Positions 25,863 through 36,566 of a stretch of DNA of 64,000 nt are shown here, piece after piece. The translations under genes were made by a program, and so were the position numbers. This DNA comes from Chloroflexota bacterium (GTDB taxonomy: Bacteria > Chloroflexota > Dehalococcoidia > UBA2979): contig QWRD01000001.1 of assembly GCA_003670575.1 (NCBI GenBank), positions 186,001 to 250,000 on the forward strand, given 5' to 3'. A model generated the notes under the pieces. That model saw nothing but the letters and a program-made list of their open reading frames with translations, was not told the origin of the DNA and did not search any database. The first letter of the stretch is position 1; each line of letters begins with the position of its first letter.

Positions 25863-27479
25863 TTACCTGAAGAGGAAGTTCGCGAAGGTCCAGTCGAACA
25901 GTTTGCGCGCGTCGGCATCGCGGTCGGGCGCGTTCAGCAGGGCGATGAACACACGACGCCCGTCGCGCGTCGCGGAGGCGACCATGGTGCGACCGGCCTC
26001 CTCGGTGAACCCGGTCTTCACACCATCCGCGCCCAGATAGCCGCCGAGCATGGTGTTGGTGTTCGTGAGGGCGATCGTGCGCGACCCGAGGGCCGTCCAC
26101 TGGCGCGCACTCACGGCGCCGGCGAAGTCCGGCAGCGTCATCGCGTAGCGGGCCAGCATGGCCAGGTCGTACGCGGAGCTGTAGTGCCCGCTGGCGTTCA
26201 GACCGTGCGCGTTCTCGAAATGCGTCTCGCCCAGCCCCAGCCGCAGCACCAACGCGTTCATGCGCCCGACGAATGCGTCGTCACTGCCGGCCTGGAACCG
26301 CCCCAGCGCAAGCGCGGCGTCGTTGCCGGACGGCAGCATTAACCCGTAGAGCAGGTCGCGCTCACGGAAGCAGTCGCCCGGTCGCAGCCCCATCACAGAA
26401 CTGTCGCCCATCTCGCGGCTGTCCACGGTCACGGGCACCCACGCGTCGAGTCGCCTCGATTCCACCGTGAGGATCGCGGTCGCGATCTTCGTGAGGCTGG
26501 CGGGCGGCGCGGTGCGGTGGCCGTTGCGCTCGTAGATCACCGCGCCCGATGCGGCGTCGACGATCGCGACCGCACTGGCGCTGACCGGCGGCGGCGGCAG
26601 CGCGCGGATGGCGAGCGGCGGCGAACCGGTGGGTGCGGGCGGGGGCAGGGTGGCGGTGGGGGCAGCCTTTGGCGCTGTGATCGCCTGTCGAGTGATTGCA
26701 CCACCGCACACCAGCAGGAGCGGTGTGCCTGCGCTGATCGATGGTCCGTACCGCTCCAGCCAGTCGGCGTTCACCACCTCGGGTGCGTCGTAGATGTAGC
26801 CGATGAATCCACCGTCAGCGGCTGGCGCCCACACCGACCGCAGGGAGCAGCCACGCTCCGCGGACGCTGCTGCAACCTGCTCCATCGAGCCGCCGCCCCA
26901 CACCACCAGGCCGGTGCCGGAGTCTGGCACGGCACCCGTGATGCCGGGCGCCACCGTCGGCCCCTGCGCGGCCCCCGCGCGTGCGGGCGTGGATGTGATA
27001 GCGGTGCAACCGGGGCCGATCGGCGGCACGGCGGCTGCCGAAGGGGCGCTGGCGGGGGCCGGCACGGCGGCGGGGGAGATGGCTGGCGCTGTGGGGAGCG
27101 CGGTGCCTGCAGGAACCTCGCGCAGGTACATCTCGGCGACCCAGCCGATCTGCTCGCCGACCCGCACCTGCTGCCACGCGGTTCCATCGACGACCACGCG
27201 ACCGGGGATGGCGGTGACGGGGCTGCCGTGCGGCAGGCAACGCAGTTCGGGGAGTGCCCTGCCCGGCCCGCCACGCAGACGCAAGCAGTCGCCATCAGCA
27301 TCGACCACTGCCGCTGTGCCGGCGGCCAATGCGCCCGGCGAGGCCGGTGCCGTGTGTGCGGAGCGGGAGTGTTGTGCCGCGGTGGGGCGCGCGAAGGCGG
27401 ACTGCACCGGAGCCACCAGCGTCAGCAGCAGTGCGAGTAGCAGGCCCCAGCGAGGCGTGTTGGTACGAACGATGCTCAA
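25863..27479 (-). CDS. D-alanyl-D-alanine carboxypeptidase with SH3-like and GGGS/Cys modules
   Basis: About 538 aa from the TTG at 27477-27479, which has GGAGGG upstream. A signal peptide (residues ~10-30, ending SAFA) is followed by an SH3b-like domain (~56-119), an Ala/Pro linker, then a ~70-residue module (188-258, genomic 26706-26918). Another Pro-rich linker leads to the peptidase S11 domain. Its active-site motifs are SLTK (Ser328, Lys331), SGN (384-386) and KTG (488-490). It trims stem peptides outside the membrane. The 188-258 module recurs at the C-terminus of the IPT protein at 35115. Co-transcribed with the GT-C gene. Confidence 0.9.
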   Translation of the reverse strand: MSIVRTNTPRWGLLLALLLTLVAPVQSAFARPTAAQHSRSAHTAPASPGALAAGTAAVVDADGDCLRLRGGPGRALPELRCLPHGSPVTAIPGRVVVDGTAWQQVRVGEQIGWVAEMYLREVPAGTALPTAPAISPAAVPAPASAPSAAAVPPIGPGCTAITSTPARAGAAQGPTVAPGITGAVPDSGTGLVVWGGGSMEQVAAASAERGCSLRSVWAPAADGGFIGYIYDAPEVVNADWLERYGPSISAGTPLLLVCGGAITRQAITAPKAAPTATLPPPAPTGSPPLAIRALPPPPVSASAVAIVDAASGAVIYERNGHRTAPPASLTKIATAILTVESRRLDAWVPVTVDSREMGDSSVMGLRPGDCFRERDLLYGLMLPSGNDAALALGRFQAGSDDAFVGRMNALVLRLGLGETHFENAHGLNASGHYSSAYDLAMLARYAMTLPDFAGAVSARQWTALGSRTIALTNTNTMLGGYLGADGVKTGFTEEAGRTMVASATRDGRRVFIALLNAPDRDADARKLFDWTFANFLFR

Positions 27480-27577
27480 GCGCCCCAACCCTCCAACCCG
27501 CCAGATCGAGGATACCGCACCATGCGATGGAAGGACGCTGTCGGTCCCAGTGCAGTGGTGGGCGGTACCATGGCCAC

Positions 27578-28573
27578 ATGCCAGCATCCGCCGTCATCGT
27601 TGGGATCGCGTGTGCACTGGAGGCGGCGGACATTGCGCGCCTGGAGGCGCTCGACCCGCGCATCGCGGTGCGCGTCATCGCGCCGGAGGCGCTGGCGGAT
27701 GCCGCGAGCGCGCAGGCGGTCCTCGCGAACATCGAGGGCATTGAGGTGCTGCTGACGCCCCGCTGGCCCTGGCCCACGGCCGCCATTGGGGTCGCGTTCC
27801 CGCCGAGCCTGCGTTGGGTGCAGTTCGCGCACGACGATGGCAGCACTGTCATGCACCTGCGCGATGGACGCATCGAGTCGACGACGTCCGCCGATTCACG
27901 CGCGGCTGCCCTCGCGGAGTGGGTGCTCACCGACATGCTGCTGTTCGCCAAGCGCTGGCCGGAAGCGCTGCGCCACCAGCACGCGCACGAATACGCTCGC
28001 TTCATGCCCGGCGAGCTTGCCGGTGCCACGGTCGGCATCGTCGCCGCCGGAGCGATCGGCGCGGAGATAGCGTGGCGGGCTAGCCTGTTCGACTGTCGCG
28101 TGCTCGTGATGTGGCCGTCCGATGCTGATGCACTGCCCGAGGCCGACGAGGCCGACGAGGCCGGCGGGATGCACGAGGTACTGTCGCGGGAGCAGTTGCC
28201 GCGACTGCTCGCGGAGAGCGACTACCTCGTGCTGGCGTCGTCCGCGACTGCGGCCACCCGCAATCTCATCGACGCGGCGGCATTGCGCGCGATGAAGTCG
28301 AGCGCCGTGCTGATCAACGTCGGTGGCGGCGAACTCGTCGATGAGGCGGCGCTCGTCGAGGCTCTGCGCACGGGCGCGATCGCGGGCGCGGCGCTGGGCT
28401 TGACCGCTCAAGAGCCGTTGCCGCCGGACAGCCCGCTGTGGGATGCACCGAACCTCGTGCTGACCCCGCGCGCCGACCGGAGTGAGCTCGGGGATGTCAC
28501 GCGTGCGACCGATGTCTTTTTGGAGCACCTGCGTCGCTACCTCGCGGGCCAGCCGCCGACGAGCGACATCTAG
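27578..28573 (+). CDS. 2-hydroxyacid dehydrogenase homologue without catalytic residues
   Basis: 331 aa. The fold of NAD-dependent D-2-hydroxyacid dehydrogenases is plain: a split catalytic domain around a Rossmann domain (VGIVAAGAIGAEIA, residues 152-165) and the downstream INVGGGELVDEAALVEAL. The catalytic Arg (normally in NVARG) is Gly250, the Glu (normally DVFE) is Ala277, and the His (normally TPH) is Arg298. The first Gly of the dinucleotide loop is also changed. A 9-bp repeat encodes Glu-Ala-Asp copies near residue 190. The frame is intact with GC3 like its neighbours, so it looks maintained, perhaps as a binding protein. ATG 27578. Confidence 0.85.
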   Translation: MPASAVIVGIACALEAADIARLEALDPRIAVRVIAPEALADAASAQAVLANIEGIEVLLTPRWPWPTAAIGVAFPPSLRWVQFAHDDGSTVMHLRDGRIESTTSADSRAAALAEWVLTDMLLFAKRWPEALRHQHAHEYARFMPGELAGATVGIVAAGAIGAEIAWRASLFDCRVLVMWPSDADALPEADEADEAGGMHEVLSREQLPRLLAESDYLVLASSATAATRNLIDAAALRAMKSSAVLINVGGGELVDEAALVEALRTGAIAGAALGLTAQEPLPPDSPLWDAPNLVLTPRADRSELGDVTRATDVFLEHLRRYLAGQPPTSDI

Positions 28574-35114: not shown

Positions 35115-36566
35115 ATGGCTCGATGGCTGACGGTAACGGCAGTGTGGGTAGCGATGCTCATCCTGGTGCTTGGGCAACCGCATCTCGCCTCGGCGGCGAC
35201 GCCGGAGGTGCAAGCCTTCTTGGGCGGTGTGTCCAGTGGGCCGACGACCGGCGGTACTGGTGTCAGAATCCTCGGCGATAAGTTCGCTGACGGGGCGATC
35301 GTCACATTCGGGGGAATTCCCGCGACTGACGTGATGTGGCTCGGGGCGAGGCAACTTTTCGTGGTCTCACCGCCTGGATCGGCCGGTTCCGTTGCGGTCG
35401 TCGTGGCAAATCCGAGTGGCGAGACGAACATCGGATCGCTCGTATGGACGTACATTCAGGCCGGCGGAGTCGCCACTGCGACCCCGGCTCCCGGCGCGAC
35501 TTCCACACCGGCGGCAACAGCCACGCCTGCGGTACCCACCACTCAGCCGATCATTGGTTCCATCGTGCCGCCCAGCGGCCCGGCGTCCGGCGGCACGCCC
35601 GTCACGATCAACGGCAACGGCTTCTCGACGGGGAGCACGGTCAAGTTCGGTGCGAACCCGGCGACATCCGTATCCGTCGTGAGCAGCACGCAGATCACGG
35701 TGGTCACGCCCGCCGGCACGCAGGGGCCTGTGGCAGTGCTTGTCACCGCGCCGGGCAGCGCCGTGGGCGGTTTGGACGGGGGCTTCACGTACTCGCTCTC
35801 ATCTCCGGTGGTTGCGGGCGTCACGCCGATCTCCGGTCCGGTGGCCGGAGGCACCGTGGTGACCATCACCGGCAGCGGCTTCCTCTCGGGCGCGACGGTG
35901 AAGTTCGGTGGGGCATTCGCGCCGAGTGTGACTGTCGCCGGGCCTACGCAGATCCTTGCGACCACGCCTCCGGGCGTCGTTGGTTCGGTGGCAGTGCTCA
36001 TCGAGAATCCGGGCGGCGTGGCCGGTGGTGTGCCGACTGGCTACACATACACCGCGCCCAGCCTCGGCCTTACTGCCGTCTCGCCGAACAGCGGGCCGGT
36101 TGCGGGCGGCACCACAGTCACGATTAGTGGTGCCGCATTTCAGTTCGGCGCGACGGTCACGTTCGGCGCGGCCGCAGCGACGAACGTGACCGTCGTGGGT
36201 CCCACGCAGATCACTGCCGTCAGTCCTGCAGGCCCTCCCGGCTCGGTGGCCGTGACGGTGACGAATCCTGGCGGCTCCAATGCCTCCATGGGCGGGGCCT
36301 TCACCTACCAGGGGGCCGGTGCCGGCCCGATCTCCCTGCCCACGAAGGGCCTCGGCCTGTTCGTATTCGGCGGTGGTTCCAACGATGACTTGGTGCGCGC
36401 ATCCGGGTGTCCCGTCGGCACGGCGGCGTTCTGGGCGTCCGATGGCGTGGGTGGGTTCATCGTCTACGTGCCCGGAACCTCGATAGCGGCGGTGAACGCC
36501 GCATGGAACGCACGGTTCCCGGCTGGCCTTCCTGCCAGCACCCCACTGGGGGGTCGCTGCCAGTAG
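35115..36566 (+). CDS. secreted IPT/TIG-repeat protein with GGGS/Cys C-terminal module
   Basis: 483 aa. Signal peptide 1-~29 (cleavage near ASAA). Four IPT/TIG immunoglobulin-like repeats follow, at roughly 32-118, 146-230, 232-317 and 318-402, each with SGP-GGT and a later PAG-GSVAV signature. A Thr/Ala/Pro linker lies between the first and second. Residues 412-483 (36348-36563) are a separate module with two Cys, related to residues 188-258 of the carboxypeptidase at 25863. Probably cell-surface or released, perhaps an adhesion or scaffold protein. No anchor motif at the C-terminus. ATG 35115 with GAGGTG. Confidence 0.88.
   Translation: MARWLTVTAVWVAMLILVLGQPHLASAATPEVQAFLGGVSSGPTTGGTGVRILGDKFADGAIVTFGGIPATDVMWLGARQLFVVSPPGSAGSVAVVVANPSGETNIGSLVWTYIQAGGVATATPAPGATSTPAATATPAVPTTQPIIGSIVPPSGPASGGTPVTINGNGFSTGSTVKFGANPATSVSVVSSTQITVVTPAGTQGPVAVLVTAPGSAVGGLDGGFTYSLSSPVVAGVTPISGPVAGGTVVTITGSGFLSGATVKFGGAFAPSVTVAGPTQILATTPPGVVGSVAVLIENPGGVAGGVPTGYTYTAPSLGLTAVSPNSGPVAGGTTVTISGAAFQFGATVTFGAAAATNVTVVGPTQITAVSPAGPPGSVAVTVTNPGGSNASMGGAFTYQGAGAGPISLPTKGLGLFVFGGGSNDDLVRASGCPVGTAAFWASDGVGGFIVYVPGTSIAAVNAAWNARFPAGLPASTPLGGRCQ

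Follow-up and report, generated by a model that had tools for sequence, protein, structure and literature searches.

The window analysed here, a stretch of 64,000 nucleotides from an uncultured Dehalococcoidia bacterium (contig QWRD01000001.1, forward-strand positions 186,001–250,000), encodes two exported proteins, a D,D-carboxypeptidase and a chain of IPT repeats, in which an earlier note on this DNA had seen the same segment with two cysteines. The locus thus raises the question of whether this segment is a domain in its own right, how widely and on which proteins it occurs, and what it may do for the proteins that carry it.

Two copies of a two-cysteine module

The first host gene (25863–27587, minus strand, 574 codons in its longest open reading frame) encodes an exported carboxypeptidase of family S11. 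Its peptidase domain (25926–26594, minus strand, residues 332–554) matches Pfam PF00768 with an E-value of 1.7e-54, and the catalytic motifs SxxK, SGN and KTG are all found. Nearer the N-terminus the translation contains a putative signal-peptide-like hydrophobic segment (GLLLALLLTLVAPVQSAFA, 27390–27455, minus strand), followed, before the module, by a putative SH3b-like domain (27117–27314, minus strand) suggested by its DCLRLR... motif and by orthologues, this region having no Pfam match in the present copy. The second host gene (35115–36566, plus strand) encodes an exported protein in which four IPT/TIG repeats (PF01833, E-value 7.5e-53) precede the module. These repeats also match the NCBIfam model NF058597, the choice-of-anchor Z repeating domain, a surface-protein repeat model, with an E-value of 6.3e-25.

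Copy 1 of the module lies inside the carboxypeptidase (26706–26954, minus strand, profile match E-value 3.3e-31) and copy 2 at the C-terminus of the IPT-repeat protein (36327–36560, plus strand, E-value 3.3e-29). Alignments and their paired occurrence place the two cysteines at 26847–26849 and 26706–26708 on the minus strand in copy 1, and at 36408–36410 and 36558–36560 on the plus strand in copy 2, where the second is the penultimate residue of the protein. The copies are 40% identical over 70 columns (BLASTP E-value 8e-10), and their Smith-Waterman score of 104 stands 13 standard deviations above 5000 shuffles (mean 28, maximum 60), none of which scored as well. Similarity of this order identifies the two segments as homologous, and bears out the full-length alignment and the shared pattern reported in the earlier note, since both cysteines, GGGS, the WA pair, VN and TPL are present in each copy. 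The spans given there, 26706–26918 and 36348–36563, do locate the segments, but the domain itself starts some 7–12 residues earlier, and the residues assigned in the carboxypeptidase, 188–258, become 224–294 in the longest reading frame, a 36-residue shift arising from the choice of start codon.

Searches of Pfam, NCBIfam and PDB sequences, using single modules, a nine-row profile and sets of host proteins, placed no named family on the module, so that the impression that it is not a named domain stands and no established family claims it. No description of the domain was found in the literature, searched mostly outside subscription journals.

Lineage, host proteins and position

A profile built from the window pair alone, as had been proposed, recovered eight further copies in the window's own genome, bringing its total to ten in an assembly that is 68% complete. 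One copy in this genome, L015 (G000:C32:18796-19038), lies before a cupredoxin domain and is interrupted by an in-frame TAG, so that the gene is broken or misassembled. When a nine-copy profile was run against 60 near genomes, 30 matched, all of them in the window's own bacterial family, and none of 24 genomes from other families of the class did. A profile of 25 copies (A4) raised the figure to 38 of the 44 own-family genomes, with 446 matches when rows are summed and as many as 30 copies in a single genome. Across the class 56 of 393 genomes match, namely these 38 and 18 more in just two other families, f20 and f30, while an even draw of 400 genomes from the phylum yielded matches only in the window's own genome and in three genomes from f20 and f30. 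The module is accordingly typical of this lineage, as had been surmised. Other matching records are metagenome-assembled genomes titled Dehalococcoidia, Chloroflexi and, twice, Thermoflexus. The latter two (CAMDNW010000002.1, locus L089, and CAMDBZ010000016.1, locus L095) bear the title Thermoflexus hugenholtzii JAD2, yet the proteins that carry the module in them are similar to those of the window's family, one protein being common to L095 and L024; these record titles may be misassigned.

The six own-family genomes in which the module was not found are G012, G020 and all four of genus g10 (G011, G025, G034 and G456). They contain transpeptidases, and the g10 genomes together with G020 also have no S11 match. 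A mobile-element origin was considered and is ruled against by searches in which viral contigs of IMG/VR gave no match to the narrow profile A5, and phage and plasmid collections gave none to the IPT copy as query; the module is a trait of the lineage and not part of a phage or plasmid. Two hits were discarded as chance matches, a reading frame resembling an electron-transfer flavoprotein (L010, E-value 0.225) and a 17-residue match on a Planctomycetales contig (L099).

The loci fetched contain 168 distinct modules in 154 host reading frames, 14 of which carry two, and after masking of the module the hosts fall into 49 single-linkage groups, a number inflated by fragments. Among 101 hosts examined with Pfam, the commonest partners are S11 carboxypeptidases (24), SH3b domains (SH3_3, PF08239; 18) and IPT/TIG repeats (15), with PKD-like (8), matrixin (6) and CAP (5) domains, LysM, beta-helix, GH10 and M14 found as well, and a cupredoxin in addition; several of these partner domains are wall-binding or wall-cutting. 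One exemplar, L023, was read as 'M23' by inspection and has no Pfam hit. Where the N-terminus of the host is complete (116 hosts), an export-type hydrophobic segment precedes the module in 105; the same crude hydrophobicity test picked out 12 of 40 generic reading frames of the window. Several of the 11 hosts without such a segment seem to be truncated, or broken in frame, upstream. Export, which had been asserted for the two window proteins, is thus general among the hosts.

The position of the module within its host varies widely, with 76 C-terminal cases, 20 directly after the export segment, 39 internal and 14 undetermined. Where the C-terminus is complete (146 hosts), the module ends within five residues of it in 76, and the protein continues for more than 50 residues beyond the module in 54. 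The sequence flanking the module is enriched in P, T, S, A and G. Copies at either end or in the middle of unrelated hosts agree with the earlier view of a mobile domain. In a tree of 161 modules the host class has to change at least 14 times among the classified hosts, a figure to be read with caution given that the tree is poorly resolved, with 84 of 158 branches open and most forks unresolved; in outline it supports a history in which modules would mostly have been inherited with their host and re-joined to others several times. The S11 motifs SxxK, SGN and KTG are intact in all 28 hosts of this class, and the module has therefore been added to working enzymes. A further, shorter S11 frame, of 361 codons, occurs in the window's genome outside the places where the module was found.

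Paired cysteines, predicted fold and distant relatives

Tallied by alignment column, 157 non-redundant modules contain cysteines 51 and 107 in 110 cases, cysteines 12 and 44 in 23, none in 18 and a seemingly single cysteine in six. In five of these six the partner lies just beyond the cut or is shifted by one or two residues, and the sixth (L140) reads like one of the five (L131), so that the corrected tally is 115 modules with the pair seen in the window, 24 with the other pair, 18 with none and no half pair. Two alternative pairs, together present in 139 of 157 modules and each kept or lost as a unit, form the pattern expected of disulfides. The suggestion of a disulfide in the earlier note therefore holds as far as the pairing goes, no cysteine being single in this set, and the bond itself stays a prediction from sequence. 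The alternative pair is also found in a subfamily of large, apparently propeller-containing proteins (L084, L144, L150, L159, L167, L177, L181, L185, L193 and L195) that have two tandem modules near the C-terminus.

Other conserved positions are led by G35, G36, G68 and N83, each kept in more than 95% of modules, and next by V82, G27, L30, P98 and aromatic positions. All highly conserved positions are Gly, Asn, Pro, Cys, hydrophobic or aromatic, with no D, E, H, K or R among them, and this absence of conserved charged residues makes an enzymatic role unlikely. What is conserved seems to serve the structure, and nothing like a conserved polar binding site stands out. AlphaFold2 models of the carboxypeptidase and IPT copies reach a mean pLDDT of 89.6 and 92.6, respectively, and both exhibit a beta-alpha-beta-beta-alpha-beta order, preceded by a short extra strand in the carboxypeptidase copy. 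The two segments are thus predicted to fold alike and with high confidence, which speaks against the divergence in fold that would have set them apart, although both models were built on the same 16 sequences and are not independent. Foldseek comparison of both models with the PDB, and of the IPT copy with BFVD, yielded nothing at an E-value of 0.001 or below (best E-value 0.33, TM-score at most 0.40), and the best VIA-align superpositions (Z 3.5 over 62 residues at 3.7 rmsd, and Z 3.0 over 63 residues at 3.9 rmsd) are at background. Neither SPOR nor a ferredoxin-like or other named small-domain fold stood out among these matches, and background-level matches are no proof that the fold is new.

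Weak matches in family f30 (L047 and L048) led to a wider, likewise unnamed Chloroflexota domain with the pattern GWNL ... VY.YD ... W..Y.P ... N.L ... G.YW (alignment A10). With a single query it was found in 21 of 301 Chloroflexota genomes spread over several classes, and it has no Pfam or NCBIfam model and no match among PDB sequences. It often forms a tandem pair ending large exported proteins (L047, L048 and L200–L229, in other Chloroflexota families). Profile comparison by hhalign joined module and wider domain with a probability of 85.5 (P 5.7e-6) over 48 columns, covering the first two thirds only, and with larger sets the probability was 72.7 (P 3.2e-5); of 30 column-shuffled controls 29 gave P 0.039 or weaker and one produced a spurious 11-column hit. 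Sequences L047, L048 and L202 bridge the two. Both domains comprise about 75 residues with the layout G-x-x-L, (V/W)-x-x-D, Y-x-P-G-x-P, N, and in exported proteins both are found fused to CAP and to matrixin domains. They differ in that GWNL and the C-terminal YW of the wider domain are replaced by GGG(S/T) and the final Cys in the module, which ends TPL...RC and has no YW column where the wider domain has G-x-(G/A)-Y-W. Lacking this segment, the module is to be regarded as a distant relative of the wider domain and not as a member. It appears, from profile and motif similarity, to be a divergent two-cysteine branch marked by the GGG(S/T) loop and, usually, by the cysteine pair.

A proposed envelope tether and known wall-binding domains

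The module has the pattern of accessory binding modules, with no conserved catalytic residues and with many unrelated exported hosts that carry it at variable position. What these observations describe is a family of exported context, diverse partners, paired cysteines and restricted lineage; that it binds anything, and that its ligand belongs to the envelope, is what we infer. With a probability of roughly one half, the unnamed module is an accessory domain without catalytic activity that folds independently and serves to hold exported proteins at the envelope; the surface binding or attachment proposed in the earlier note is the best reading of the architecture. According to this proposal the module, some 75–85 residues long, would fold outside the membrane, usually stapled by one putative disulfide, and linkers rich in Pro, Thr, Ser, Ala and Gly would join it to its partner. 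It would then bind a component of the cell's own envelope, be it the surface layer or a glycan or polymer of the wall, and so may keep enzymes such as D,D-carboxypeptidases and peptidases, as well as surface proteins made of repeats, at their sites of action.

The envelope of these bacteria is compatible with such a function. All 44 own-family genomes have a penicillin-binding transpeptidase, and so has each genome tested in f20 and f30. Tepidiforma, of the class Dehalococcoidia, has both peptidoglycan and a surface layer, while other Dehalococcoidia have lost peptidoglycan genes (PMC10284905; PMC10608941). The presence of transpeptidases in the module-bearing families, together with the published envelope of Tepidiforma, fits an envelope tether. 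Other observations count against it. The conserved residues look structural, so that the ligand could differ between copies; six own-family genomes have transpeptidases and no module; and one host (L007) is a xylanase, whose substrate lies outside the cell. Copies of the wider GWNL type occur in five genomes of the class with no PF00905 hit, weakening strict peptidoglycan binding by the whole superfamily, and a peptidoglycan ligand cannot hold superfamily-wide.

Some of the same evidence can be read differently. A role in protein–protein docking or adhesion, in which the module would bind another exported protein or itself and build surface assemblies from IPT, PKD-like and propeller-like proteins, is a possible though doubtful account. 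It draws on the many hosts built, as adhesins typically are, from strings of Ig-like repeats (TIG in 15 and PKD-like in 8 of 101), on the fourteen hosts with two copies, and on the lack of an evident conserved surface site, polar or aromatic, such as glycan binders typically have, yet single copies on monomeric S11, CAP, GH10 and M14 enzymes would need one common partner. The xylanase L007, a GH10 enzyme with the module directly after its signal segment, and L024, glycosidase-like by inspection though with no Pfam hit and with the module at its C-terminus, would suit a carbohydrate-binding module that brings secreted enzymes to environmental glycans outside the cell; this is unlikely, as most hosts are not glycosidases and the commonest enzyme host is the wall carboxypeptidase (24 of 101).

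The structural look of the Cys pair and of the conserved Gly, hydrophobic and aromatic positions, together with the 76 of 146 hosts in which the module caps the very C-terminus, might also point to an inert spacer or stability unit, a stapled domain with no ligand that protects a protein end or separates domains. Such a unit is a poor candidate, since hosts unrelated to one another keep GG and Asn in more than 95% of cases, and the dissemination of the module over so many of them suggests selection for something more than spacing. The same 76 hosts, with the module at most five residues from the end, invite comparison with C-terminal sorting signals read by dedicated secretion or anchoring systems, a highly improbable reading that is largely refuted by module positions, since 54 of the 146 run on for more than 50 residues and 20 hosts carry the module directly after the export segment; nor does any processing motif follow it. 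Taking the envelope tether further, one may tentatively suppose that a new small alpha/beta fold or superfamily with no solved structure serves Chloroflexota as a general-purpose extracellular tether, and that its disulfide branch arose and spread in the peptidoglycan-bearing Dehalococcoidia, binding an envelope component peculiar to them.

The module is thus a real domain family of a familiar functional kind, and apparently an undescribed one. Annotation has missed it in an uncultured Chloroflexota lineage, where hundreds of exported proteins carry it and are linked by it as one surface system. With a profile of the module, part of the proteins that these bacteria export, and that are probably associated with the envelope, could be marked out. 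It also offers a handle, open to test, on how peptidoglycan-keeping Dehalococcoidia hold their surface enzymes, and the distant relatives in other Chloroflexota suggest a whole unnamed superfamily absent from domain libraries.

Among known systems, the SPOR domain (PF05036), which binds peptidoglycan and is about 70 residues long (PMC6895207), resembles the module in size, in the beta-alpha-beta-beta-alpha-beta order of two helices and four main strands that is predicted for the module, in low sequence identity and in being joined by linkers to envelope proteins. SPOR is marked by an RNP-like sheet of four antiparallel strands with both helices on the same side, and by its binding to glycan strands that lack peptide stems. 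The module differs in its Cys pair, and glycan binding on its part is as yet conjecture. PF05036 found no match among nine modules (E-values up to 1) or 101 hosts (E-values up to 1e-4), and no SPOR chain was among the Foldseek or VIA-align rows, which is not an exclusion. To SH3b and LysM, wall-binding accessory domains that occur in some of the module-carrying proteins, no sequence relation was found; the module is restricted to its lineage, and SH3b is all-beta, whereas the module is predicted to be mixed alpha/beta. In general design, however, it is much like them, a small, non-catalytic domain joined by linkers to exported enzymes.
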